Source of the DNA: Salinibacter grassmerensis
Lineage (GTDB): Bacteria > Bacteroidota > Rhodothermia > Rhodothermales > Salinibacteraceae
Assembly (NCBI RefSeq): GCF_947077765.1
Contig: NZ_CAMTTF010000010.1
Span: 1 to 64,000 of the forward strand
DNA: 64,000 nt
Direction of reading: 5' to 3'
This document shows positions 4,365-37,581 of the stretch, one piece after another. The position numbers and the translations under genes were made by a program. The notes beneath the pieces are model-generated. The model was not told where the DNA came from. It searched no databases and saw nothing but the letters and a program-made list of their open reading frames with translations. Within the stretch, counting starts at the first letter, position 1, and every line of letters begins with the position of its first letter.

Positions 4365-5336
4365 TTATAACACCCAGTTGAAAAGGTAGCCGAGGGCGAC
4401 GATCGAGACACCGACCGTCCCAAAAAAGGTCGCCAAAAGGCGCGTCTGCATCGCCTTTTTCAGCATCATTGCCTCCGGCAGCGACAGGCCTACCACCGCC
4501 ATCATGAACGCCATGGCCGTCCCCAGCGGAATCCCCTTCGCCACCAGCGCCTGCACAACCGGGATGATTCCCGACGCGTTTGCGTACATGGGCACGGCAA
4601 GGACCACCGACAGTGGGACCGCCAACGGGTTGCCCCCTGACAGATACTGTTCAAAGAACCCGGTGGGCACGAATCCGTGGATGCCGGCCCCGATGGCGAG
4701 GCCCGCCAGCACGTAGGGCGCAATGTCGGTCACAATGCCCATCGCCTCTCGCGAGACCGACGGCAGGCGCTCCCACAGCGAACGTGTATCGGACTCCGCC
4801 TCTTCGGTCTTGTTCTCGGCGATCTCCCACACCCAGTCCTCCACGAAGCGCCCCAGGCCCATACGGCCCAGAGCCCATCCCAGTACGGTGCCCAGGACAA
4901 TGCCGCTAGCGGCATAGAGGAGCGTCACCTGCCGCCCAAACAGGCCGATGAAGAGAGCCAGGGCCACCTCGTTCACCAGCGGGGATGTGATCAGGAACGA
5001 GAGCGTTACGCCCAGCGGGATGCCCCCCTGCAGAAACCCGATAAAGAGCGGGATCGACGAGCAGGAGCAGAACGGGGTGACCGCCCCAAAGCCTGAGGCC
5101 ACCAGGTGCTCGCTGCCCCGTAGCCGCCCGGAAGCGATCCACTCCCGCACCCGCTCGACCGGCAGGTACGCATTGATGAGGCCCATCAGGTGCGTCACCG
5201 CAACGAGGAGCAGCCCAATCTTCGCTGTCTCGTAGACAAAGAAGTGGAGGGACTCCCCCCAGTGGGACGACTCGGACAGTCCGACGAGGCCGTAGATGAG
5301 ACCATCGGCGAAAGACTCAAGCATAACGGATCGCAA
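4365..5336 (-). CDS. ArsP/COG0701-type permease
   Basis: A 323-residue membrane protein with about 8-9 hydrophobic segments. TPFCSCSSIPLFIGFLQGG (residues ~88-106) is the hallmark cysteine-rich segment of the COG0701/DUF318 permease family, and a second conserved block (MYANASGIIPVVQAL) lies in the C-terminal half. Known members include ArsP, which exports trivalent organoarsenicals, and other metal permeases. A central polar loop (ENKTEEAESDTRSLWERL) separates two halves. It lies 49 bp downstream of a small thioredoxin gene and shares its strand with arsR1, so it is probably ArsR-regulated. Because an arsM gene lies in the same cluster, export of methylated arsenic is attractive but unproven. 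Confidence 0.85.
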   Translation of the reverse strand: MRSVMLESFADGLIYGLVGLSESSHWGESLHFFVYETAKIGLLLVAVTHLMGLINAYLPVERVREWIASGRLRGSEHLVASGFGAVTPFCSCSSIPLFIGFLQGGIPLGVTLSFLITSPLVNEVALALFIGLFGRQVTLLYAASGIVLGTVLGWALGRMGLGRFVEDWVWEIAENKTEEAESDTRSLWERLPSVSREAMGIVTDIAPYVLAGLAIGAGIHGFVPTGFFEQYLSGGNPLAVPLSVVLAVPMYANASGIIPVVQALVAKGIPLGTAMAFMMAVVGLSLPEAMMLKKAMQTRLLATFFGTVGVSIVALGYLFNWVL

Positions 5337-20150: not shown

Positions 20151-20222
20151 ATGCGCATCGGCTACGCCCGCGTTTCTACCACGGGTCAAAACCTCGACCC
20201 CCAACTCGATGAGCTCGAAGAG
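20151..20222 (+). pseudogene. Serine recombinase (resolvase/invertase) N-terminal fragment
   Basis: MRIGYARVSTTGQNLDPQLD then ELEE is the classic start of a resolvase, with the catalytic serine S9 in RVSTTGQN. Similarity stops after 24 residues, where the sequence runs into the end of the convergent heme-peroxidase gene. The rest of the catalytic domain and the DNA-binding part are absent. Confidence 0.8.
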
Positions 20223-20232
20223 GTGTCTGCTG

Positions 20233-21700
20233 CTACGGAATCGTGTCCGGCTGCCCGTAGGTCAGCATCTGGCCGAGCGTTCGAGGCCCGACCCCGTCGT
20301 CTTTTGGATCCCAGTTCCGATTCGTTGCCAAATAGGACCGGTCGTCTAGTTCGATCAGGCCGTAGAGGGTCTCGGCCACGATCTGCGCTCCGACCGGCCC
20401 AAGACCTTCCCCGTCTTCGAACTCCTCCGGCGCGTCCTCACGCCCGAGCTCCTCTGCCTCAGTCAGAACATAGAACCAGAGCGGAATCCCACCAGAGAGA
20501 TCCGCTGCCGGCTCGGCCGTGTCGCGGGCCTCGTCGGCCACCCGGTCGATCTCGCTGGCCGGTCGTCCCATCTGCTGGGCTACTTCCTCGCCGGAGGGCA
20601 AAAGAAAGGTTTGCCCGCGAAGCAGATTGCGTGTAGCGAGCGAGGACTCCCCCTCTCGGATAAACCGGAGGTCCAGGAGGTCCGTCGCGAGTTTCGTATC
20701 TAGCTCCTCGGCGTTTTGGACATGGCGATCCTCACCGGTCTCGGTCAGCTCGTGCCAGTCGACGACCGCGTTTTCGTCGTCCAGAGGCCGAAACCCGATG
20801 CCAAAGGTGCGGCCGAAGAGCTCGTAAGCGGTCCCGCCTTTCTGGACCTGAATGCGCTCCGGCATCATCGAGTGTCCAAATCGGTAGGCCGCCACCGAAA
20901 ACTCAATCGGGATGTACGGCTCCCCACCACTCGGGCAATAAAACTCCCGTCCCCGACCCTTAATTCGGTCGACGACGGCCTTCCCACAGATCTTCGGGAG
21001 GTAGTCCTCGATGATCACGTACTGGTAGTGCCAACGCACCAGGCGACGAGCCTCTTCAAACAACTCGGCGCCTTCGAGCTCTTCCCCCTCTAGGCCATTC
21101 TCGTAGAGATAGTCGACCGTCGCGTTGTGGAAACGGATCATCGCCAGTTGGAGCTGAGAGATAACCCGGTTTTCGTCGTTTCGCGGGTCACCGATTACGG
21201 CCGTCCCATCGGGGGAGCGCCATAGGTCGTGCTCCCGAAGCCCCCTGGGCTGGTCGACAGTGTCTCCATCCTCGCCGGTAATCTCGGCGGCGGTTCCGTT
21301 CTCGGCGGTTAAAAGCTTGATGTCGGCAAAGTCTCCGCGTCCGCCCCGGTAGAGGAACGGGGTCGCCTCCGGCCCCATCCCGTAAACATTGTCCAGGTCG
21401 AGGGTGGGAGTGCGCACGTTGGGAACTTCCTCTGCGCTTGCCACCGACGCTAAGCTCGTGGTCGATAAACTGGCCGAAGAAGATTTGCCCGGCGCTTACG
21501 GTATCAGTTCGATCGAAGTCCTCTCCCCCGTCCATCGGGCCGTCCTGAGCGCCGAGGGCCTCCAGTTCTTTTGATTGGGTATTGAGTGGCGGGAGCCCGT
21601 CGAATAGTCGGCCAAAACGGTCTTCATCTTCTGCTTCGTGACCATAGTGGCAGAAAGCGTCGATGCCTTCCAGATCGTTCATCCCGTGGTGCTTTGCCAT
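20233..21700 (-). pseudogene. Animal-type heme peroxidase split by a +1 frameshift
   Basis: The 5' frame from ATG 21700 reads MAKHHGMNDLEGIDAFCHYG and continues to IFFGQFIDHELS, the conserved distal-heme region. A +1 shift at 21451 is needed to enter the second frame: ASVASAEEVPNVRTPTLDLD, NVYG, then GRGDFADIKLL and FSVAAYRFGHSMM (proximal His). Combined length is about 489 residues, normal for bacterial An_peroxidase homologues, and both parts are well conserved. The shift point is CTT A GCG on the minus strand. This is either a recent mutation, a sequence error, or a frameshift event. Family members are halide- or phenol-oxidising peroxidases. Confidence 0.8.
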
Positions 21701-25228: not shown

Positions 25229-25371
25229 GCCCTAGGGCTTGGCGGAGGATCACCTGGAAACGCTACGGGAAACCGTCACGGAGGAACGCCACGGGAAACT
25301 CCCACGGGGAAACGTCACCTGCGCTAGCGCTGAGGACTTCGGTGGCGGCAGAAGCGCCCAAATGCCCCCTT

Positions 25372-25630
25372 CCCCGAAGGCATCTGCGTTTCTCTAAGCA
25401 TCCCTCCGAAGACACTTGCGCCCTTGGCGCCCTCGCGACCAGGCACACGCGGCTCAATCACAACTCAATGATGCCTCCAAGGGCGACACCTCCAAGAGGG
25501 GTACGTTCCAAAGGAGATACACCCCAAGCAAGGGGAATATCTTCAGGCAACGGCTCTGAGGGCGTCTCCAACGTGGGAGCGCCTCTCACCTGCAGAGCCG
25601 ATGCTTGCAGAGATGGTGACCCCGGCAAGC
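25372..25630. repeat. ~260-bp direct repeat, copy 1
   Basis: Closely similar to 26739-27010 in the same orientation, from CCCCGAAGGCATCTGCGTTT through CGCCTCTCACCTGCAGAGCC. Both copies contain small internal repeats (ACACCTCCAAGAGGG; ACGTGGGAGC). The pair brackets the Doc toxin-antitoxin module. The preceding bases (25255-25320) hold irregular short repeats of ACGGGAAAC. Confidence 0.85.
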
Positions 25631-25727: not shown

Positions 25728-25925
25728 ATGAAAACACTCACAATCCAGCTCTCCGACGACACCGCGGGCCGCCTGGAGGCTCTCGCTGATCAGCTCGGAA
25801 TGTCCACAGAAGAGGTCGCGCAGGTAAGCATCGACGATCAACTCAAACGCTTGGGCCGCGGATACGAGGAGGCCGCCGAAGAGGTCTTGTCGAAGAATGC
25901 TGAACTCTACCAACGTCTTTCGTAA
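25728..25925 (+). CDS. Antitoxin of the Doc module, RHH-like
   Basis: 65 residues: KTLTIQLSDDTAGRLEALAD, QLGMSTEEVAQVSIDDQL, then an acidic C-terminal helix ending ELYQRLS. The opening strand and helix-turn-helix resemble small MetJ/Arc antitoxins, and the C-terminus would dock on the toxin. It precedes the Doc toxin gene by 131 bp on the same strand. The pair lies between two direct repeats. Confidence 0.8.
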   Translation: MKTLTIQLSDDTAGRLEALADQLGMSTEEVAQVSIDDQLKRLGRGYEEAAEEVLSKNAELYQRLS

Positions 25926-26056
25926 TCGAGGTCTTTCATAATCGAGGTCTCTCCCCGGCAGGAGTCTCTCAGGAGTCTCTCGTCGTTGGACCCCGACACA
26001 GCTGGCCATTCATAGGTGGCTATTCCCGTCAGCTCCACTATACTCGTCGAGCAATT

Positions 26057-26452
26057 GTGCGGTACCTGAGCGTCACTGAAGTTCTTGATCTCCATCGCCG
26101 CCTAATCGAAACGTCGGGAGGGAGTCCGGGACTTCGAGACCGGGGCGCTCTCGTCTCGGCCGTCCGCCAACCCCAAATGCAATTCGGCGGAGAAGAGCTA
26201 CACTCCTCGATTGCTGAGAAAGCAGCGGCGATCGGGTTTACCCTGGTCCAGAACCACCCGTTTGTGGATGGAAACAAGCGGGTGGGCCACGCTTCGATGG
26301 AAGTATTCCTTAGGCTAAACGGCTGGGAGACCGTCGCTTCCGTGGATGAGCAGGAACGTCTTATCCTCGACGTAGCGGGGGGAACGGTCAGTCGGGACGA
26401 ACTGACGGAGTGGCTTTCTGCTCACGTTGAACGCCTACAGTCTCCGGAGTAA
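26057..26452 (+). CDS. Doc (death-on-curing) Fic-family toxin
   Basis: 131 residues from GTG 26057. YLSVTEVLDLHRRLIETSGG and RDRGALVSAVRQPQ match Doc N-terminal helices. The active-site motif is HPFVDGNKR (67-75), the Fic/Doc loop in which the His and phosphate-binding residues act; Doc phosphorylates EF-Tu. RLNGW and the final acidic helix follow. The catalytic loop is intact, so the toxin should be active when the upstream antitoxin is lost. Confidence 0.9.
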   Translation: MRYLSVTEVLDLHRRLIETSGGSPGLRDRGALVSAVRQPQMQFGGEELHSSIAEKAAAIGFTLVQNHPFVDGNKRVGHASMEVFLRLNGWETVASVDEQERLILDVAGGTVSRDELTEWLSAHVERLQSPE

Positions 26453-26498
26453 GCTTTTTCCCAGAGGCAACCCCCGAGCACACAGCCCCGGCCTGACC

Positions 26499-26602
26499 GT
26501 GAATGCACCCGCGGAATTGTGCCGATTTGCCGGAGGTGGTGCCTGAGGCCGCGCAGTGACGAGCATGCGTTACGCAGAAGTGAGGAGCGTAATGATCGGG
26601 GC
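26499..26602. repeat. ~100-bp dispersed repeat, copy A (att-like)
   Basis: Aligns over about 100 bp with 31115-31214, including GAATGC at the left, TGCCGAT-TTGCCGG in the middle and GCATGCGTTACGCA at 26564-26576. The other copy lies just upstream of a tyrosine recombinase gene. Identity is roughly 70 percent by eye. Confidence 0.55.
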
Positions 26603-26738
26603 TTTGTCAACGGGAAAATTTGATACCCGATTTCGGGTCATGAGTTGCTATCGGGCCCGAGATCGGCGGCGAGTAGCCGTTTCAGAACGCCTCTGCAGGG
26701 ATGACCCGTCGGCTTCGTCGCGAGGGGCCTTTGCCTTG

Positions 26739-27010
26739 CCCCGAAGGCATCTGCGTTTCTCCGGCCATCTCTCCGAAGACACTTCCGCCCTTGGTGCCCT
26801 TGCGACCAGGCACATGCGGCTCAATCATAACTCAATCGTGCTCCCGAGTGCGACACCTCCAAGAGGGATGCATTTCAAGGGAGATACATCCTAGGGGGGA
26901 TATTTTCAGCCAACAGCTCCGAGGGCGCCCCCGACGTGGGAGCATCTCCGACGTGGGAGCGCCTCTCACCTGCAGAGCCGATGCCTGCAGAGATAGTCGT
27001 ACCGAACAAG
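26739..27010. repeat. ~270-bp direct repeat, copy 2
   Basis: Partner of 25372-25630. It is slightly longer because the ACGTGGGAGC motif is duplicated at 26930-26960. Divergence is moderate, so the duplication is not recent. Confidence 0.85.
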
Positions 27011-27166
27011 CGGCCGGAGGCTCAGCCGGCTGAAGCTTAAGCAGCTGAGATCCGGCTAGCTAAGGTCCAGAAGGTCCGGCCAGACAAGGTCCGGCTGGGG
27101 GCCCAGCCGGGGTCCAGTCGGCCACAGGCCAACTGGCTATAGACAGTTCAGCTGCAGACCAACCAG

Positions 27167-29557
27167 CTACAGAGAGCCAGCGGTGGAGGAGTGCCCGTCG
27201 CCTCCGTATTCCCCTGGCGCCGGCTTGGGAGACCCCGGCTCGGGAGCCCCCGGATTGGGAGCCCCTTCCCGGTGGGAGCGGGCTTCTGCTCCCAGATCGA
27301 ACGCCTCGACCCCCTCTCGCAGCCGCCGAACCGTCCCCTCCAGGTCCTCCGACGCCCCGGCAACCTCCGTCACTCCCTGGGCGGACTCCTGGGCCGCCGC
27401 CGAGATCGACTGGACGCTCTGGGCTATCTCCTCGCTGGTGGTGGACTGCTCCTCGGAGGCCGCCGCAATCTCGTCGGCCTGCTTCTCGACCTTCCCGATC
27501 GAGCCGACCACCTCCTCGATCGCCTCCCCGGCCTGCCCGGCCAGCTCCAGCCCCTCCTCCGCCTTCCGGCTGCTCCGGCGGGCCGACTCGACCGCCTCGC
27601 TGGTCTCGGACTGGACCTGCTCGATCATCTCGGCGATCTCGGTCGTGGCCCGGTCGGCCTCCTCCGCAAGCTCCCGGACCTCCTCGGCCACCACCGCAAA
27701 GCCCTGGCCGGTCTGGCTCCCGGACTCCCCGCCAGCCCGAGCCGCCTCAATCGCCGCGTTCAGGGCGAGCAGGTTGGTCTGCTGGGCAATCTCGTCGATC
27801 TGCTCGATGACCTTGCCGATCTTCTCGCTGGACTGGCCGAGCCGCTCGATCGTGTCGGCGGTCTCCCCGACCGCTCCTGCAATCTCTTCCATCTTCTCGG
27901 TGGTCTGGCCGACGACCTCCCCGCCGCGCTCGGCCTGCCGGCTGCCGGACTCCGCCGCCTCGGCCGCCGAGTGGACGCTCTTGGCGTTCTCGCTGATCGT
28001 CTGGTTCAGCTCCTCGACCGCCGCGGCCACCTCCTCGGCCTGGGCGGACTGCTCCTCGGCGCTGGCGGCCATCTGGTCCGACGACGCAGAGATCTGGCTC
28101 GACGCGGAGGCGGTCTCGTCTGCCGCCTCTTTCACATCTGAGAGAAGCCGGCGAATGCTCCTTACCGCCTGGTTGAATTCCTCGAAGAGGCGGTCCATCA
28201 TGGCCTTTTGGTCACTGAGATCGCCGTCGGCGTCCTCAAGGCGTGCCTGCACCGTCAGGTCCCCGTCGGCGAACCGGTTCATCGCGTCCAGCATCGTCTC
28301 GATGTTCTCGCTGAGATAGGCACGCTGCTCATTCGCTTTGGCCTTGGCGGCCTTCGCCTCACGGGCCGCCTCACGGGCCGCCTCACTTTTCTCTTCCATC
28401 TGGGTCATTGCCTCCTGGATTTGGCGCACCATCGTGTTGAATGAAGCGGCCAGTCGCCCCACCTCATCCTGCGTGTCGCGCTCCACGTGCACGCTGTAAT
28501 CCCCGTCCGCGGCAGCATCTGCAGCGGCGGCCAACTCCTGTATCGGGCCAATAACCGTCCGCCGCGCCGCCACGTACAGGATGCCGGCGATGATGACGAG
28601 GAGGGCACTGCCGAAGAGAAAAATCATCCTCCGTGCGCCAGTGAGCTGGGCATTGATGTCACGATCCGGATAGGCGGCGACAATTGTGAATCCCCACGCT
28701 TCGAAGGTTGACCGCCGCACGTTCCACGCCTTTCCTTTACTGCTCCCCTTCTTACTGGACCCGCCCTCGTTGGCAAGTGCAGACTGTAGCTTGTTGGGAC
28801 TGATGTGCTTTGAGTTGAACATAACCTCTCCTTCCCCGTCCAGCACGGCCAAGAACCCGTTCTCCAAGATGCGGGTCTCCTGGACGGATGCTTCAAGCGC
28901 CTTCATTCCACTCAGCTCATACCCTACGTACCAGATGCCCACCACGTCGCCCTGGGCATCCCGCATCGGTTCGTATCCCGTCAGGTATTTGTCTCCCAAG
29001 ATGTCGACAATTCCGTAGTAGGACTCCCCGTCGGTGATGGCCGCGTAGGCGTTGCCGTCCGGATTCAGAACAGTTCCCACGGCTCGGCTGCCGTCGTCTT
29101 TTGTCACGTTGGTGCTAACGCGAACGAACGTGTCGCCGTCGCGCACAAACAGCGTGGCCGTCCCCCCAAGTTGCTCGGTAACCTGATCCGGCAGTTGATA
29201 GCGGCCCACCTGGCTGACACGGCCAAACTGCAGGTCCGGCACCGCTTTCCCCTCAAGCGACGTTCGTCCTCGCAGAGCAGGGGTGCCGAGTTGCCGGGCC
29301 TCGTCTTTCAGGGCCCGTATTCCACTGCGTACCATCTGCAGGCGGAGCCGGTTGATGGCTTGCATCCGCTCTGTGAAGCGCGCCGCACTGCTTTCGGCTT
29401 TCTCCTGGGCGGCTTGCCGGACATCGTCGCCAATTCGCATCGAGACGACAACCCCCGCTGCCACCACGCCCAGTCCGACCACGAGAATAATCGGAATCAT
29501 AAACTTGGCGGCAATACGGGTGGTAGCGGCCGACCAAAGAGCAGTTAGGTATTTCAC
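27167..29557 (-). CDS. Methyl-accepting chemotaxis transducer
   Basis: 796 residues. TM1 ([19 protein letters not shown]) is followed by a large Cache-type periplasmic sensor (about 42-300: [47 protein letters not shown]). TM2 ([19 protein letters not shown]) leads to a HAMP domain, a charged coiled coil, a second HAMP-like segment and a signalling domain whose hairpin tip reads [20 protein letters not shown]. The C-terminus ends in a Pro/Gly tail without a pentapeptide tether. It senses a small ligand outside and signals to CheA; no other che gene is in the window. Confidence 0.95.
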
Positions 29558-29713
29558 AACAGAATCTCAGTCCTATGTCGAATCTTGCATCGAGAGAGAA
29601 GCTTCAGCAGACCGTCTGGGGAACCGATCGAACTAACGCGAGGGGCCAACACGTCGGGCCAGCATCATGTCGGGCCAGCATGGCGGGCATGCGCACGTGA
29701 AAATACCGTAGGT

Positions 29714-29760
29714 ACAACCGGTCACGTACAACCGGTCACGCACGACCGGTCACGTACAAC
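29714..29760. repeat. 14-bp tandem array
   Basis: Three units of ACAACCGGTCACGT (one with C/G changes) at 29714, 29728 and 29742, then a partial unit. ACCGGT in each unit is itself a palindrome. Confidence 0.85.
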
Positions 29761-30055
29761 AGACCCGCCAAGTGACTCTGCCCTTGAGTTCATCTCAGTC
29801 GCGGGTTGAGTTGGCAAATTTCGACGCGAGGTCGGCACGTCCCAGATTGCAGTGAAGGATCTTCACCAGAAGGCTTCTCCGGCAACAGCAGGCTCGTCCA
29901 GAGGCCATGCCAGAACCGGGCCTGCACCTGGTTCATGAACTGGCACCGGAGGCCAGAAAAGCTCTTTTCGACTTGCTGCCTGGACCGACTGACGGTCGAG
30001 TGGCCTTCACCCGGATCGTTCGATGGCGCCGGCGCGAGGGGTTTGAGCATGGCCG

Positions 30056-30099
30056 TCAAGCCAGTCGATTCGTCAAGCCAGTCGATTCGTCAAGCTAGT
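30056..30099. repeat. 17-bp tandem array
   Basis: TCAAGCCAGTCGATTCG repeats at 30056 and 30073, with a partial third copy from 30090. Confidence 0.85.
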
Positions 30100-30180
30100 C
30101 AGAGAGCGCGCGGCCCCGATGCCCTCATCGGCCAAAAGGACGCGCCCTGGAGCCGGAGCATCTGCGATCGCCTCGGCGTC

Positions 30181-30225
30181 GCTAAAGCCGGGACTGCTAA
30201 AGCCGGGACTGCTAAAGCCGAGATC
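30181..30225. repeat. 15-bp tandem array
   Basis: GCTAAAGCCGGGACT at 30181 and 30196, with a diverged third copy at 30211. Confidence 0.85.
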
Positions 30226-30258
30226 ACCGCTTACGGACCGATGCTAGCCAGCTCCCTT

Positions 30259-30303
30259 CAGATGGGACCGCATCGGATGAGGCCGCAACGGATGGGACCG
30301 CAG
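30259..30303. repeat. 15-bp tandem array
   Basis: Three units (30259, 30274, 30289) around CGGATGGGACCGCA, with the middle copy reading GGATGAGGCCGCA. Confidence 0.8.
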
Positions 30304-30602
30304 TTAGTCGTCAACGAATAGGTAGTATTCGGTCAGATGAGTTTTGAGGTCACGAGTTTTCTCACCGTCCATAAGCCATCGGGGCGAAACGGTCCAAGGA
30401 TCGAGCAACTGCTCAATATTGTGAGCCAGTCGCTTCGACGGTTATCTCTGCTTTCCAACCCGCAATTCGATTTGAGTTATCGGTGCATATCCAAAACCTT
30501 TAAGAGACCATTAAGAGAACATCTTGACTTCAACCTTAGTTAACAGACGTTTCCAAAAACAACCCTCCGTGCAAGTAGGGAGTGGACTTGCGTGAGAAGT
30601 GC

Positions 30603-30634
30603 GAATCAGGGGTTGAGAGCAAGGAGGAGCATCG
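30603..30634. repeat. 32-bp dispersed repeat, copy 2
   Basis: Partner of 2689-2720 (27 of 32 identical). It lies about 100 bp from a transposase remnant, supporting origin as an insertion-element end. Confidence 0.6.
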
Positions 30635-30735
30635 CGGCGGCGAGCCGACCGAAGCAAGACGATCGGAAGCAACCTCCGCCCCGGAGGCCCGCTGCCATTT
30701 CGCCACACGGGTCGGCATCGAATCGGCGATGCGAA

Positions 30736-31011
30736 TCATCTCGCTAGGGGGCTTTTACAGCCAACTTCTGAGAGGGCTTCTTGGGCCAGTGGAGCAAAAA
30801 CGGCGCTCAGGCGACCCGGACGGCGGTTGTAGCTCTCCTGCGTGGGCAGATCCGGAAACCACTCCAAAAAGTGCTCTTCAACCCGGAGGTGAATCTCGCT
30901 GATAGTCGTCCGCTTTTTGATGAGCTTAAGCACGTAAGAAGCTATCGCTGTTTTCAGCACCTCCTCGTCGGTAACATCCGGCTGGTCATTGTTGCTCTGC
31001 CGCTGGGCCAC
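30736..31011 (-). pseudogene. DDE transposase N-terminal remnant
   Basis: About 91 residues: NDQPDVTDEEVL, then KKRTTISEIHLRVEEHFLEW and FPDLPTQESYNRRPGRL. This resembles N-termini of IS4/IS982-like transposases, which carry a V-T-D-E-E-V-L start and a WFPDLPS-Y-x-x-YNRR-L segment. The catalytic DDE part is absent and the stretch KTAIASYVLKL looks frameshift-altered. Family assignment is tentative; it is decayed in any case. Confidence 0.5.
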
Positions 31012-31114
31012 TGCGCCGAGCCGGCCTCGGTAGCGCTGTCAGCACCCTGACTATCAGAACCCGTTTTACCGCCGGTGTCTGTCGGCCGAAGGGATGCCTG
31101 GCCGGATGGCCGAT

Positions 31115-31214
31115 TTTCGTGAATGCGTTACGCAATTCCGCCGATATGCCGGATTGCCGCGTAGCGGCGCGCATCCGTTACGCAAAGAGGCGGATGCGTA
31201 ACAATCGGGTGCGG
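31115..31214. promoter_or_regulatory. Candidate recombination site upstream of the tyrosine recombinase
   Basis: GTTACGCA occurs at 31127-31134 and 31177-31184, and inverted at 31195-31202. CGCATCCG (31170-31177) and CGGATGCG (31191-31198) form an inverted repeat with a 13-bp spacer. A diverged copy of the whole segment lies at 26499-26602. The gene for a recombinase begins 80 bp further on. Confidence 0.5.
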
Positions 31215-31294
31215 CAAGGGTTTTTGGAAACAAGAGGGGTTTTGCCCCGACTCTGACCCGCTTCCGACCTGCTTTCCGGCTCGCCTTTCGGCTC

Positions 31295-31870
31295 ATGGCT
31301 CGCCCCGACAAGCTCCCGAAGATCCTAACTCAGGAGGAGACGTCCTCGCTCTTAGGTCAGCCGAACCGGCGATACTTCGGCCCCCATCGCGACTACCTCT
31401 ACATGAGGTTGATGCTCAAGGCAGGACTTCGGGCGTCGGAAGCGACGGCACTGCGGCCCGAGCATGTTGACCTCATAAGCGGAAAACTGACGGTCCGGGA
31501 AGGCAAGGGCGCGAAGGACCGGACGCTTTGGGTTGGAGAAGACCTCCTGGAGGAGCTCCGAGAATGGATGGACCGGCGGCAGGAAACCACCGGAGGTTCG
31601 GGCTACCTGCTCTCAACTTCGAAGGGAACGCAGGTGGCCACCTCTCACCTGCGCCGGTCGGTGAAGCGCTATGCCCGGAAGGCTAAGATCGAAGAGGTCG
31701 GGCGCGTGTCTCCGCACACCTTGAGACATACCTTCGCCACGCGGCTCTACCGGGAAACGGGAAACATCCGGCTCGTGCAAAAGGCCCTCGGGCACTCCGA
31801 CTTGTCCACAACGATGATCTACACCCACGTCGTCGACGAGGAACTGGAGGGCGCGATGAAGGGCCTGTAG
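31295..31870 (+). CDS. Tyrosine recombinase, catalytic domain only
   Basis: 191 residues. The catalytic set is visible: Arg in AGLRASEATALRPEHVDL, Lys in VREGKGAKDR, HTLRHTFATRL, His in KALGHSDLSTTMIYTHV, and the nucleophile Tyr of IYTHV. The N-terminal SAM-like core-binding domain of XerC/XerD/IntI is missing; only about 12 residues precede the first helix. The frame is intact with start ATG 31295. It may act on the repeats at 31115-31214. It could be a genuine minimal recombinase or a truncated Xer homologue. Confidence 0.85.
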   Translation: MARPDKLPKILTQEETSSLLGQPNRRYFGPHRDYLYMRLMLKAGLRASEATALRPEHVDLISGKLTVREGKGAKDRTLWVGEDLLEELREWMDRRQETTGGSGYLLSTSKGTQVATSHLRRSVKRYARKAKIEEVGRVSPHTLRHTFATRLYRETGNIRLVQKALGHSDLSTTMIYTHVVDEELEGAMKGL

Positions 31871-31895
31871 CTGGCGGAAAAGTCTCACATGTGTC

Positions 31896-32345
31896 CTACG
31901 GCCGGTCGGGTGGGCCGGAGAAGGGCGTCTTCTCGACCTCATCGGACGGGTCGCTCTCGGAGCTCTCTCCACTTTCCTCGGCCACGCTGGTCACGACGTA
32001 GTAGTACGTCGTCCTGTTCTCAGCAGTCCCGTCGGTGTAGCTTGTCTGACCGATGCCGGTCTCCAGCGGTCCGGAAGAGGCGTCTACGCCCGAGGAGGTG
32101 CTCCGGTAGACGCGGTAGGTATCTGCTCCGTCCACGGCGTCCCAGCTCAGACCGATCGCCCCGTCTTGCGAGGAAGCGCTCAAGCCCGACGGCGTAGCGG
32201 GAGGCGCTGGCCCGTTCCCGCCATTGGAGCCGCCTCCGCTGCAGGCAGGAAGCGTTAAGGCAAGGATCACCGTAAGGAAAAGTACGGGAAGACGACCTGC
32301 ATCAGTCCTGCTCTCAAGAAGCAACCAGCCGGATGGTGAAGTCAT
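31896..32345 (-). CDS. Lipoprotein with one fibronectin type III domain
   Basis: 149 residues. Signal peptide LPVLFLTVILALTLPAC ends in a lipobox, followed by a Gly/Asn/Pro linker and one FnIII domain (TPSGLSASSQDGAIGLSWDA, YRVYRSTSSG, YYYVVTSVAEES). The domain is related in sequence to the FnIII domain of the large secreted protease encoded next on the same strand. Their starts are far apart but both may act on the cell surface. Function is unknown. Confidence 0.8.
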   Translation of the reverse strand: MTSPSGWLLLESRTDAGRLPVLFLTVILALTLPACSGGGSNGGNGPAPPATPSGLSASSQDGAIGLSWDAVDGADTYRVYRSTSSGVDASSGPLETGIGQTSYTDGTAENRTTYYYVVTSVAEESGESSESDPSDEVEKTPFSGPPDRP

Positions 32346-32406
32346 AGTCTGTGAGACAAATTCGTCAGTAAGACGAGCCGGTCGAGAGAGTGAAGCGAAA
32401 AGCGCC

Positions 32407-35400
32407 TCAGCGCACGACGGTGATCTTCTGGGTGCGGGTCTTGCCGCCAGCCTTGAGCCGTCCGAAGTAGACCCCGCTGGAGAGCTGGCTGGCTCGGAGG
32501 TCTACCCGGTGACGCCCGGCCTCTTTCTGGCCGCTTTCCAAAGTGGCGACCCGCCGGCCGAGCACGTCGTAGACCTGCAGGCTGACTTCCTCGGCCTCCG
32601 GCAGGGCGTACTCGACGGTCGCCTGCCTCCGGGCCGGGTTCGGGTAGGACGTTAGACTCACCTCATCGGGAAGGACCTTATCCGTCTCACCCTCGACGTA
32701 GCCGTCGGTGCCGACCGCAAGCTTGAGCTGAGCAGTCTTGCCTTCCAACTTGACCTTGGCGGCTTCTTCCTTCCGCAAGTCGTAGGTTTTTCCGGCCGCA
32801 GGGTGGAGGAGGGCTACCGACCGCCCCTCGACCGCGCCGAGGTGCCCCGCGGCAAGCGTGATCGGGCCGCCAGCCTGGCTTGACAGGCGCAAGGCAAAGG
32901 TCTCCCCATCGCCCTCCACCGGCCGGCGCTCGGCCATGAGGACGCGTGCACGCTTCAACTCGGCCTTGCCCGAGGCCCCCTCGGAGGTTTCCCCAAGGTC
33001 TTCCTCGGAGGCCCTGATCCGTAGGCTCGTTTTTGCAAATCGGCTCGGCGGGGCGATCAAGTCCTCCGGACCGATCCCCGGCTCTGCGCCCTCGCGAAGT
33101 CCCACCTGTACGGTCGAGCCTGCACCTTCCGCGCGGGCCGGCGTCGCCGTGAGGGACAGCATCGCCGACTCCCCCTCCTTCTCCTTCGACATCTCGGATG
33201 AGGCCGCGCTTCCCGGCGCGCCGGGGTAGGGAATCACCAGTGAGTCCCGTTCGCTCTCGCCGTTGAAGAAGTAGTAGGCCTCGCCGGTGGCCGCCGAGGC
33301 GAAGGTGGCCGTCGAGTCGAATGTCCCGCCAAACGACCAGATCGGCTGCAGATCCCCGCTGGTCGCATCTTCGACGGCGGCCCAACTCACGTCCTTGCCG
33401 AAGGGATTGGACACGACGTTCCAACCTTCCCGCAGCCCAATCGCCGTGGCGGAGTCTCCCCGCAGGTCCACCGTCGGGATCGGCTCCTCGAAGGTCCACT
33501 CGCTGGTGGCGGTCAGCCAAAAGCCGTTGCCCGCCTGGAAGGTGAAGCTGCCGGACCCGTCGTACTTCTGCAGAAAGTCCCCCTCGGTCCCATCATCGTA
33601 GTAGGCCTGCCACTGGCTGCCGGCCTCCCCGCTCACGGCGTCGGCCAAGGGGCGATCAGCTTGACCCGGAAGGGCCACCAGCCGGTAGCTGGTCGAGTCG
33701 GTGGCCCCGCCAAACGTGCGGCTGGCGGAAGCGGTGACCTCCTGCGGGTAGAGGAAGGCGTTGACCTCGCTCGAAAGGGCGCTCTCACTACCGGACGCGT
33801 CGACGGCGGTCACCCCATAGCGGTACGTGCGGTTTTCGGTGGCGGTGGTGTCGGTGAAGTCTGTCTCCGAGATCAGGCCCTCAGTGAGCCCCGCGCCGCT
33901 TGTGTCCGGCGCCTGGCCCGCGGAGCGGTACAGGCGGTAGCCGGCCAGATCATCAGTCATGACTGAGTTCCAGGAGAGGAGTACCTGCTGGCTCTCCACG
34001 GTGGCTGTCAGCCCACTCGGCGCTGATGGTGATACCCGTTCAGTAAGACCTCCGTCGTTGATCGTCCAGCCCTCTTTCTCGATGATCGACTGGCGGGCCG
34101 ATTCCGCGCCTGAGGTATATTGGCTCTGGCCGGCGTCAAATGTCAGGCCGTCGGTTAGGTCCAACTGGGCCCACCCGGTCAGAAGTGCGTCGTAGTTTGA
34201 CGGGGAGAGCTTTGCCCCCCCGCCCAGGAAGTTCTCGAAGGAATTGGCAAAGTCCCTGGAGTCATCAACACTTGAGACATCCCATTCAGCAAGACTCTGA
34301 TCGAAGGCGGTAGCGCCGTTAAACATTCGATCCATGTTTGTCACACTGGAGACATCCCAGTCGCCGATGTCCTGGTTGAAGCTGGTGGCCCTGGCGAACA
34401 TGCCAGACATGTTAGTCACGCTAGAGACATCCCAAGAGCCGATTGGCTGGTTGAAGCTGCTAGCGCCGCTGAACATGGCGAGCATGTTGTTCACATTGGA
34501 GACATTCCAGTCGTTGAGCGGCTGGTTGAAACTGCTGGCATTGGCGAACATGACGAACATTCTGGTTGCGCTGGAGACGTCCCAGGAGCCGACCGGCTGG
34601 TTGAAGCTGCTGGCACCTCTAAACATGAGGCCCATGTTGGTGACGTTGGAGACATCCCAGTTGCCGATGTCCTGGTTGAAGCTGGTGGCGCCGGCGAACA
34701 TGCCGTACATATCAGTCACGTTGGAGACATCCCAGTCGCCGATGTCCCCGTTAAAGCTGGTGGCGCCATTGAACATGTAGGCCATATCGGTCACCCCAGA
34801 CAAGTCCGGGGTGTCGGCCGCATTATAAATCATGTTCTCTGCTCCTGAGAAAGCCCTTCCCATACTCTCCCACTGGATGTCTCCCCATTGTTCAATCGAC
34901 TGGAGCCGTCGGGCGTTGGCCTGGTCCTCGCCACCAGAGTTCGCGTTGAGGTAGATCCGCGGAAATGTGCCGCTGATCTCGACCGTATATCTCCCAGCCT
35001 CCTTGTAGGAATGGCTGGGATCCGGGTCCGCTCCGGAGTAGGTCTCGGTCGTCCCGTCTCCCCACTTGATCTGAAAGTCGTAGTCGGAGGCGCTTTGCGC
35101 AGTGGGAATCGTGACCGATGAGTCTGGAGAGGTCGTCTTCCAGGTCGTGACGAACACATTTGAGCCCGTGACTTCAAGATCCACCTCAAGCGGACTTTTC
35201 TCGTTTGAGGCATTGTGTACGATCTCGAGAGTGGCTTCATGCCCGCCAGGCGTCTCCGGGTCGTACTGGACCCGGGTAGAGTCCTTCTCGCCGGGAGGCA
35301 CTTCGATTTGTCCAGAAGAGAGCACCTCAAAGTGCTCGGCGCCTGGCCCCTTGAGATCCACCTGGGCCGTGAGTGCCGCATTTCCGGTGCTACGGAGCGG

Positions 35401-36861
35401 GAGCACCAAAGTATCTGCAGGTGGATTTCCTACAACCGCGCCGGGGAGCGCTACGTCGGGCGTGACGTACGGCGAGGTACCTTGCGAAGTGAGAGGGGCC
35501 ATGACCTCTTGCAGGCTTGTGCGGTTGTCGGCAGGGCCGAATTTTTCATGGACCGAGACGCCCCAGGATGCGTCTCCGGTCTCTCCATCGGAGCCTACTG
35601 GCACCTCCTCCCTGTAGAGCAGTTCAGGACTGGAAAAAGTCGGGACTCTAGTGGCGTAAACCTCTTCGAAGCGATTGTAGGACATGACCGATACATACGG
35701 GTCGTCGTTGTAGATCCACCGCCAGCCGGCCGCATACTCGGTGCGTCCTCCATCTTCACCTGCCGCATTAGCGTCCTGCATGCGACTGTGAGCCATCCCC
35801 GTGTTGTGACCAAGCTCGTGGATGAACGTGTGCGTAGAAAGAAAAATGGAGCGGACACTTGTGACAGAGAACCCAAGTCTAGCGTTACCAGACCGATCCC
35901 AGTTGGGGGGGGACCAGGCTATTCCACCGCCGTAATCGATGAGCAAGGCCACCAAGTCTGCCTGGTACTCATGTCGCCACTGGTGCACCTCACTCATATA
36001 CTCGCCGTTCACAAAATCCTGCGTGTGCGAGTCGGTCAGGCGTCTCAGGTCGGCAGCTTTATCTCCAGACCCCTCGTACTGAACCTCCTGGTGATGGACC
36101 AGATTGAGCTTTAATTCCACTTCCGTGTTTTCAATCGTCTCACGAGCGTTTCCCACCGCCTGCGAAATTGCAAAATCGATGTCTGCGCCCCGCTCTTCAG
36201 CCTCTGCTGCTGCAACAGGGGTATATACGACCATCACGTCAAGCTCGGAAGAGTCCTTCGAGGCACGTGCTGAGGAGGAATTATAGGACTCGCGAGGCCC
36301 TGCCCCCCCAATCTCTTCTTCCTTACCCCTCCCCGAGTCCGACTCAGGGGGAAGGATCGCGTCGTCCTGGAGACCCTGCTCGTAGACTTCCGGCCCGTGC
36401 TCAACCAGCATGTGGGTGTCTCGGGCAGAGTTGTAGTGGACCTCGAAGGCTCCACGGTGCTGGCCGATGGGGCGTGCTAAAAGGCGCGTGCGCCCTTCCC
36501 GGTAGGACAGGACGAAGTATCCCCACTTTCCGCTATCGAGATTACCACGCACCTGCGTGACGCCGGGCACATCCTCAGTCACGTCCGTGACGGTGCCAGT
36601 GTATTGGTCTTGAAATAACGACAACTGAACTTGGTCTCCTTCTCGAACGGAGCCGCTTTCTAAAGGACGCATGTCAAGCGCAGCTTGGCCTCGCCTCCGC
36701 TCGTGGCCTTTCTGCTCTACCCAAGATTTTTGAGTCGGGCCGTCGGCGCGGACTAGTTCCCATTCCGCGTCAGTTTGTCCGAGGGCCGGTGTTGCGGAGA
36801 CAGCAAGGCTACAAATTACCGCGGTGAGGAAAAGGGCGCAGAGGCGCGGAAAGCGCGTCAT
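32407..36861 (-). CDS. T9SS-secreted metalloprotease with BspA/DUF285 repeats
   Basis: 1484 residues from ATG 36859-36861, followed by a signal peptide ([19 protein letters not shown]). A reprolysin-like metallopeptidase domain has the zinc motif [12 protein letters not shown] near residues 348-359. Then comes a choice-of-anchor-D-like beta domain (~475-565), a PKD-like segment ([11 protein letters not shown]), six full 25-residue DUF285 repeats plus partial ones (~684-877), an FnIII domain (~950-1040), further beta domains, and a type A T9SS sorting domain (last ~80 residues: [35 protein letters not shown]). It should be exported across the outer membrane. Substrates are unknown; the repeats may mediate adhesion. 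Confidence 0.9.
34230..34810 (-). repeat. 75-bp coding repeats (DUF285/BspA type)
   Basis: Six in-frame 75-bp units encode [19 protein letters not shown]-like repeats with alternating D/N/S at variable positions. The central copies differ by several synonymous and amino-acid changes, so the block is old but still in register. Confidence 0.9.
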
Positions 36862-37581
36862 AGATGCTAAAGTTGTGCAGTCGAAGCTACGCGAAGCAAG
36901 AGGTGACGATATACGCACTCGCCTACATCGGATGTCGGAATTCGTGAAACGCCTGCACTCTGCATAGCCCTTGAGGTCACTTTTTTACGGCCATTAATTA
37001 CTTCAGCACAGGTATAGTCAGAGAATTGCGTCAATCCGGACTTGCATTATATCCAAAAGATTGCCGAAATAAAAAATCTCCACTAAAGGATTTGGGCAGC
37101 GGTGCTCAATCTGCCCCTACGCTTGCTCAAACTGCAGATCTAGCAAAACGCAAGTATACAGTTTTCGGGCCCTGATGCAACTCCGATCTTGAGGGTCTCT
37201 CCGAAGCGACAGGTTGAAGAGAAGCGACAAGTTAAATACTTACTCGAAGCGGGCACAGAAGCTCTCACAGAGGGTTTTCATCCGCTGAAGGGTGATCGAC
37301 TGCCCCGTGGACTTCGACTGGTTTGGGACCTCCTGCTCAGCCTGCTTGGCGGCCCGCTTGTGAAGCTTATCCAACCGCTCTTGGCTCAAGGCGTCGATCT
37401 GCTCCTGGGTCAGGCCTGAGAGAAAAACGTCCATCACGTCGATGTTGAGCGCCTCCGTCCGGTCCTCCATCTTCGGCTTCTCGGGCCGCTCCTGGCCGCT
37501 CTGGGCGCGGAAGCTCGTCTCTTCAGGACACTACCCTTTTTGAGTTAGGCCCGCGAAGTGCCTGACGGGACCAAGCACCGA
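36862..37581. other. Gap with one doubtful small frame
   Basis: Positions 36980-37180 are AT-rich and may contain the promoter of the large protease gene. One small minus-strand frame (37240-37470) is listed separately. A stretch of short GAAGCGACA repeats lies at 37200-37255. Nothing else seen. Confidence 0.45.
37240..37470 (-). CDS. Small hypothetical protein, possibly a remnant
   Basis: 76 residues from ATG 37470: MEDRTEALNIDVMDVFLSGL then TQEQIDALSQERLDKLHKRA. It is charged and helical and the frame stays open upstream to about 37535, so the true start is uncertain. I recognise no family. It may be the end of a decayed gene; composition is compatible with coding. Confidence 0.3.
   Translation of the reverse strand: MEDRTEALNIDVMDVFLSGLTQEQIDALSQERLDKLHKRAAKQAEQEVPNQSKSTGQSITLQRMKTLCESFCARFE

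Follow-up and report, generated by a model that had tools for sequence, protein, structure and literature searches.

A catalytic-domain-only tyrosine recombinase and its adjoining three-box site in Salinibacter: a candidate resolution module of plasmids and phages

The first 64 kilobases (kb) of an 89,318-base contig of Salinibacter grassmerensis (NZ_CAMTTF010000010.1, positions 1 to 64,000; hereafter the window) carry a gene for a tyrosine recombinase of 191 amino acids (aa) which, judged from its sequence, is reduced to the catalytic domain. It is preceded by a site of three short boxes, A, B and C. We consider it rather probable that gene and site form a self-contained, plasmid- and phage-encoded system of the Xer/Cre type which resolves multimers and circularises genomes, with an accessory and regulatory role for box A. 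The module is real and conserved across several phyla, and the reading which suits it best is a novel form of Cre/Xer-type resolution system. The anatomy of the site, its conservation, the matching of boxes A and B, a homology breakpoint at the core and the gene neighbours are direct observations and are presented first.

The recombinase and the anatomy of its site

Phage_integrase is the only Pfam match in the 191-aa protein. Residues R46, K71, H141, R144, H167 and Y176 occupy the catalytic positions of the family; domain and R-K-H-R-H-Y residues together place the protein in the tyrosine recombinase superfamily. All six positions are invariant in nine of nine relatives. In a set of 38 relatives, four of the six show no variation, and K71 and H141 are retained in 90% or more. 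An initial annotation of this DNA had proposed that the core-binding domain is missing, which the profile comparisons bear out: matches to the four best Xer-type models begin at profile positions 90-107 and reach 137-154 bits, against cut-offs of 220-335. The protein thus shows neither the N-terminal core-binding domain nor the model score of the two-domain XerC, XerD and XerA proteins. It also remains below cut-off with the integron integrase model TIGR02249 (123.6 bits, cut-off 265) and with the FimB/FimE DNA-invertase models (44.4 and 43.4 bits, cut-offs 221 and 222). By sequence profile, the proteins of solved structure closest to it are XerA, a XerC-like protein, XerD and XerH, in keeping with the minimal-Xer manner of action suggested initially. 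The AlphaFold model has a mean predicted local distance difference test (pLDDT) score of 88.5, falling below 50 at residues 169-176, around the tyrosine. It superposes on the catalytic part of an archaeal Xer protein (4a8e) with Z 22.0 and a root-mean-square deviation of 2.7 over 169 aligned residues, and also aligns to the catalytic parts of XerA, XerH, IntI4, lambda integrase and Cre. The same comparison, which covers Foldseek-ranked chains and informs on the catalytic domain and not on function, lists two phage proteins with a recombinase fold, YopR and SroF, the latter titled a repressor in its entry.

The octamer GTTACGCA occurs four times in the window (26569, 31127 and 31177 on the forward strand, 31195 on the reverse strand), against 0.85 expected; four occurrences were reached in 2 of 100 shuffles. 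Three of them form the arrangement reported initially, namely a direct pair 50 base pairs (bp) apart and an inverted copy 10 bp after the second (Table 1). Boxes B and C delimit a core of 26 bp. Compared with dif-like cores (28-30 bp with a centre of 6-8 bp), this span is made of 8-bp arms and ten intervening bases (N10). With 8-bp arms recognisable and a 10-bp spacer, the functional arms are probably about 10 bp long and the overlap 6-8 bp. Box A of the window aligns with eight other sites, the version on plasmid pSR118 being altered. A further 8-bp dyad, also pointed out initially, is present in the window (31170-31177 / 31191-31198) but is not conserved among the aligned sites, as judged by eye, and for this reason looks incidental. 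The diverged second copy at 26.5 kb is real. With a core shorter by one base and CGTAAT as its right arm, it has the look of a relic; it aligns only in part to the sites of C12, another contig of the same genome, and of pSR118.

Table 1. Features of the recombinase module and related elements in the window
Feature	Position	Strand	Remarks
Box A (putative accessory half-site)	31116..31139	+	TTCGTGAATGCGTTACGCAATTCC; 50 bp 5' of box B; octamer GTTACGCA at 31127-31134
Box B, left arm of the core	31177..31184	+	GTTACGCA
Core spacer	31185..31194		dyad centre between 31189 and 31190; presumed place of strand exchange
Box C, right arm of the core	31195..31202	-	inverted GTTACGCA, 10 bp past box B
Catalytic-domain-only tyrosine recombinase, 191 aa	31295..31870	+	Pfam Phage_integrase, residues 10-182
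Shared module, box A to end of recombinase gene	31117..31870	+	about 750 bp; homologous on plasmids, flanks mostly unrelated
Decayed A-B-C site without recombinase gene	26495..26602	+	nine-site model: 27.4 bits, E 9e-7
Plasmid replication initiator, C-terminal remnant	37258..37512	-	82% to residues 223-307 of pSR76 Rep; in C12-related stretch

Association of site and gene within the genus and beyond

Relatives 84-86% identical to the recombinase are encoded on the S. ruber plasmids pSR35, pSR61, pSR76 and pSR118; others lie on a 39.8-kb contig of genome G010 (84%) and in genome G008 (74%). Paralogs in the same genome are found on C12 (90%) and on the window's own contig at 86559 (84%, with one TAG). 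Nine sites of the Salinibacter type can be aligned. Eight stem from Salinibacter or organisms close to it and the ninth from the viral contig L150, and every one lies upstream of a recombinase gene. The core pattern GTTACG-N12-16-CGTAAC has six exact matches in 13 genomes of the genus, each with the C arm and a gap of 14 bases separating the hexamers. A recombinase gene follows directly on five of them, in one case the TAG-bearing copy; the sixth (G005:C39) has no recombinase within the 2.5 kb examined. A reversed-pattern control gave 14 forward matches in the 13 genomes against six for the true pattern, so that the argument rests on the location of the matches and not on their number. With a model of the whole site, scoring up to 150 candidates per genome, 14 places were found in five of the 13 genomes: five by intact recombinase genes, one by the TAG-bearing copy, one by a split copy and seven orphan or decayed. 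More copies of the segment, which the initial annotation had proposed to look for, therefore occur elsewhere in the genome and genus; the wide occurrence without recombinase or junction evidence that it had named as counter-evidence is found only in part, at these seven places. In the G008 copy, a T to C change in the arm is identical in boxes A, B and C. Inside a locus A and B resemble each other, from one locus to the next their letters change, and both travel with the gene through distant bacteria, a pattern which supports the initial proposal that the recombinase may act on this site.

When recombinase-bearing copies are compared with coordinates centred on the core, homology extends in most pairs from about -72 to -85, the left edge of box A, to about +650 or beyond, the end of the gene. 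Exceptions are pSR35/G010/pSR61 on the left and window/C12, pSR61 and G010/pSR76 on the right, and the homology of C10b begins at or past its core. Two orphan sites break within the core. The inverted second site of pSR76 has 470 bp (85%) in common with the main site of that plasmid, ending at -2, and against six other full copies its homology ends at -1 or -3 (-1 to -3 in seven of seven overall). The orphan on the chromosome of S. ruber DSM 13855 (L058:9642-9788; G003:C1:349641-349787) loses homology at -1 to -3 in comparisons with six of the seven full copies; with the window copy it does so at -44. For both orphans together, 13 of 14 comparisons end 1-3 bp left of the dyad centre of the core. 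From its other side, the DSM 13855 orphan matches among the full copies that of the window alone, up to -30. Each of the two orphans has a second left-type half opposite, the DSM 13855 site being two-sided (A-50-B joined to B'-50-A'), with no family recombinase at the site and no partner site within the 20 kb examined. A crossover at the core may explain this breakpoint, and the left-left junction would suggest antiparallel pairing of a near-palindromic core. Weaker orphans with A and B only are present on pSR118 and on G000:C6 (99995). The latter belongs to a pair of weak direct site copies 2.8 kb apart (G000:C6:99995-100068 and 102808-102890; L254:1996-2069 and 4809-4891), of which the other has a broken B; both are decayed and lack mutual homology, and no recombinase gene was found within the 7.5 kb examined.

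Outside the genus, 167 genome loci and 211 viral loci came up as related, of which 80 each were kept. Those at least 40% identical are mostly stand-alone proteins of 185-221 aa, and those at 40-74% are carried by plasmids, prophages and viral contigs and span several phyla. When 26 outside rows were included in a tree, the 52 family rows formed one group (support 98/88) together with L099, a contig-edge fragment, and L174, a 219-aa frame. A relative on a Staphylococcus xylosus plasmid (46%) shows the same box layout with different letters.

The spacing of A and B was analysed statistically in 53 upstream regions: nine from Salinibacter, one from Staphylococcus and 43 from sampled loci, four of 47 having been excluded beforehand (L070, on the contig of the G008 copy; L079, L095 and L096, with longer frames). 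The start codons come from an automatic choice, first-order Markov resampling served for the shuffles, and some of the loci are related to one another. Direct repeats were sought at distances of 25-100 in the last 200 nucleotides (nt) upstream. The best repeat lies at exactly 60, 50 or 51 bp in 35 of the 53 regions (21, 10 and 4, respectively), against 0-5 in 20 shuffled sets. An A/B match of at least 10/12 at 50, 51 or 60 bp is present in 36 of the 53, compared with 0-5 in 20 shuffled sets and 0-4 in seven control distance sets. The distances of 50 and 60 bp would lie about one helical turn apart. Cores of the form B-N10-C with differing letters were found in 15 of these 36 by automatic pick, for example CCACCTAT-N10-ATAGGTGG, GTATGTAT-N10-ATACATAC and GTACCGAT-N10-ATCGGTAC, and some of the others hold the same dyad in another register. 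For L098, the pick of the match scan (distance 51, a self-overlapping inverted pair) looks like a register artefact, other scans giving 60; L097 is a short fragment bearing a site. Among the 17 regions without an A/B match, the A-B interval is missing from C10b, box A is the altered one on pSR118, and the site is displaced in L073 and L156. An open reading frame (ORF) intervenes between site and gene in L073. The site of L156 is located 3' to its gene and so is not just a promoter operator.

A sigma-70-like pair with at most three mismatches lies inside the A-B stretch in 22 of the 36 site-bearing upstream regions, against 20% in shuffles. In eight loci (L084, L086, L089, L092, L157, L159, L161 and L162) a promoter-like pair stands at A+21 and A+44. 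Since promoter-like pairs occur between A and B in many loci, autoregulation is likely in addition.

Several relatives are located among phage packaging genes. The gene directly follows that of the terminase small subunit (terS) in the Clostridium loci L084, L087, L089 and L092 and in the viral contig L161. In L089 and L084, the two of these loci that were checked one by one, the gene of the large subunit (terL) lies downstream, in L084 after one more ORF. The upstream neighbour is terL in L164 and L165, a head or portal gene in L086 and L159, and a holin gene in L156. Neighbour families were furthermore tallied for 87 upstream neighbours and for 76 of the 123 listed downstream; SPP1-type portal genes account for 6 of these 76. 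SPP1 packages its DNA by the headful mechanism. Another, longer tyrosine recombinase is encoded 17-33 kb away in three of four Clostridium genomes, and the small enzyme is the sole tyrosine recombinase found in seven of nine viral records, which may be fragments.

Proposed reaction and competing explanations

From these features we infer binding, cleavage, strand exchange, directionality, the role in resolution or circularisation and the phage role. A recombinase pair would bind arms B and C of the palindromic 26-bp core, box A providing a third half-site. With a single core per replicon no reaction would take place. A second matching core in direct orientation could arise by plasmid dimerisation, by cointegration or through headful terminal redundancy; the two cores would then pair and swap strands at the core centre, whereby a multimer would be resolved or a linear genome closed. 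Box A may be an accessory site which favours intramolecular resolution and, with the promoter between A and B, may form part of an autoregulatory operator. For a resolution or circularisation system such as Cre/lox one would expect what is seen here, namely plasmid genes with their own core next to them and phage genes placed in the packaging region. In line with a single core per replicon, the site model gives one match, beside the gene, on pSR35, pSR61, G010:C2 and C12 (four of seven replicons).

The Cre/loxP system of phage P1 is likewise replicon-encoded with an adjacent palindromic site; it splits dimers of the plasmid and closes terminally redundant phage DNA into circles, and lox lies near pac. 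Cre has a core-binding domain, loxP has the form 13-8-13 without a third box, and the two proteins are 12-14% identical in fold alignments. In Tn4430, the tyrosine resolvase TnpI binds both the inverted-repeat core of its internal resolution site and the direct accessory motifs there; the idea of accessory boxes is shared with the window module. TnpI differs in its full length and in the number of accessory boxes, which is two, and is encoded by a Tn3-family transposon. Nothing named Tn3 or TnpA was listed within 8 kb on the four S. ruber plasmids, whose gene tables are incomplete; an IS256 transposase is listed on pSR118 and an unnamed transposase on pSR35. FimB and FimE resemble the window recombinase in size (about 200 aa) and in lacking a core-binding domain. 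Unlike it, they flip a promoter by means of two inverted repeats, and their models score far under cut-off here; the window has one intact and one decayed site in direct orientation. XerA and XerH are among the nearest proteins by sequence and fold. To our knowledge, the sites of XerS/difSL, XerH/difH and XerA/dif have no third direct box. These three proteins are longer and serve the chromosome, unlike the present family of plasmids and phages. XerS is described as encoded beside its chromosomal site difSL as one module (PMC5357621).

In passages of a 2012 classification of 1,309 tyrosine recombinases, families resolving plasmid multimers were not identifiable, and members below 200 aa of one plasmid family were considered most likely defective (PMC3414803). 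Passages of the S. ruber genome paper report XerD-type genes on plasmids without describing a site (PMC6060240). A description of this small-recombinase family was not recognised in the titles, abstract beginnings and selected passages searched. The family is short, its conserved residues argue against defectiveness, and with a predicted site included it makes the plasmid-resolvase question directly testable. A recombinase of about 190 aa with naturally varied sites could provide an unusually small Cre-like tool, and from its place beside terminase genes one would expect headful phages to have a circularisation step that is independent of RecA. A broader proposal, which we advance tentatively as a possibility, is that of a phylum-spanning Cre/lox-like class not recognised before. 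Here the core-binding domain would have been lost once, and a private three-box site, with A 50/51 or 60 bp from the 26-bp core, would both gate recombination to intramolecular resolution and control the promoter of the gene itself. The system would act against multimers on plasmids, and headful phages would keep it between terS and terL in the first-packaged redundancy, closing their genomes without host RecA.

A number of observations weigh against a resolution system. When single loci were tested with free distances, only 15 of 53 beat all 40 shuffles, so the case rests on distances common across loci that are partly related; the box C picks in 15 of the 36 regions came without a shuffle control of their own. 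No convincing site was seen within 1.5 kb in 13 of the 53 relatives, among them the viral-contig relatives L151-L153 (60-67% identity). On pSR76, box C reads CGTGAC and A and B stay GTTACG. The loss of the right half of an orphan by another route would look similar to the breakpoints described, and both breakpoint orphans consist of two left halves, unlike the product of resolution between direct repeats. There are two site places on pSR76 and a second, weak one on pSR118, the extra sites being incomplete. Three places are present on the window contig: the intact site, the relic and, by the TAG-bearing gene copy, another exact core at 86466. The exact cores at 31177 and 86466 are in direct orientation, 55 kb apart, with differing spacers, and one core per replicon is accordingly not a strict rule. 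Resolution by tyrosine recombinases generally needs matching spacers; if this holds here, these two cores cannot recombine together. Plasmid pSR116 has no site, and the module is thus not on every Salinibacter plasmid. Lastly, 11 of 21 upstream neighbours scanned singly, which were selected and not randomly drawn, had no packaging or lysis assignment, and the enzyme that is the sole recombinase of seven viral records could be their integrase.

Some of the same evidence could be accommodated otherwise. The sigma-70-like pairs between A and B (22 of 36, and eight loci at A+21/A+44) and the presence of SroF and YopR in the structural listing would suit boxes that are mainly an operator, the protein being a recombinase-derived regulator of its own promoter with recombination secondary or lost. 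We regard this as unlikely: the catalytic positions are kept, the site stands downstream of the gene in L156 and beyond an ORF in L073, and two orphan sites break at the core centre. An integrase by which plasmids, phages or elements insert at chromosomal core copies is similarly doubtful. It would account for orphans on the DSM 13855 chromosome and on contigs not known as plasmids (G000:C6, G010:C1 and G006:C10), for the solitary enzyme of the viral records, and for the integration of S. ruber plasmid regions in chromosomal islands reported in the genome paper (PMC6060240). However, the exact cores adjoin recombinase genes in all cases except G005:C39, the DSM 13855 orphan lacks a partner within 20 kb, the G000:C6 copies are decayed without mutual homology, and the Clostridium genomes mostly hold a longer tyrosine recombinase. 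A comparison for attL/attR showed no matching flanking pair on the plasmids; at other loci it covered about 1.5 kb around the gene.

The homology between plasmids, which usually spans box A to the gene end with unrelated flanks, the mosaic contig of pSR116-, pSR76- and C12-like pieces and the new left/right combinations at the orphans all recall a tiny mobile element, or a shuffling point at which plasmid halves are swapped in modular plasmid evolution. Such a role is improbable, as an integrated circle would leave a second core at the 3' end of the module, which was not found on the plasmids, and as the usual left border is box A and not the core. The initial annotation had itself suggested that the recombinase may move the intervening or adjacent DNA, in an integron-like or minimal-Xer manner; the integron-like part, be it a transfer of cassettes or of the stretch from 26.5 to 31.2 kb, is not supported. 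Two site copies 4.6 kb apart in the window would fit integron-like or invertase-like switching, but the copy at 26.5 kb is decayed and directly oriented, and the scores given above are far under the integron and DNA-invertase cut-offs; we consider switching highly improbable. For the integron itself, the low TIGR02249 score and the decayed copy led us to reject it, the search having used copies of this site and not an attC model. The Xer/Cre-like resolution system described above remains the explanation we prefer.

Contig context and neighbouring genes

Judged by its matches, the window contig is a mosaic that includes pSR116-, pSR76- and C12-like plasmid pieces: positions 27282-30559 are 86% identical to S. 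ruber plasmid pSR116, 30645-31028 are 86% identical to pSR76, and 31116-34785 match C12 at 80-81%. C12 looks like a circular plasmid. Its ends jointly match one unbroken stretch of the window contig, and its replication initiator is 93% identical to that of pSR76.

Near the relic, a ribbon-helix-helix ORF followed by a Doc/Fic toxin gene (25728-26452) is likely an addiction pair in plasmid-like DNA. This pair and the decayed site are flanked by a direct repeat (25367-25617 and 26734-26997; 158 nt at 85% and a 61-nt part at 90%) which has two copies only in its own genome. The pair was considered as a cassette and rejected, the flanking 158-nt repeats being unique to this place and distinct from the site. 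Further upstream, at 20151-20636, an ORF starts with MRIGYARVSTTGQNLDPQLDELEEV; by eye only, this is a serine resolvase-like start after which the frame is lost.

Downstream of the recombinase, a lipoprotein-like ORF and a large surface-protein ORF (31896-36918) adjoin the gene, as they do on C12. Genes annotated as cellobiosidase, BspA-like or type IX secretion system (T9SS) lie near the recombinase on pSR61 and pSR35, and a type I-E CRISPR-Cas operon is annotated on pSR118 (locus L246, 59.8-70.1 kb).

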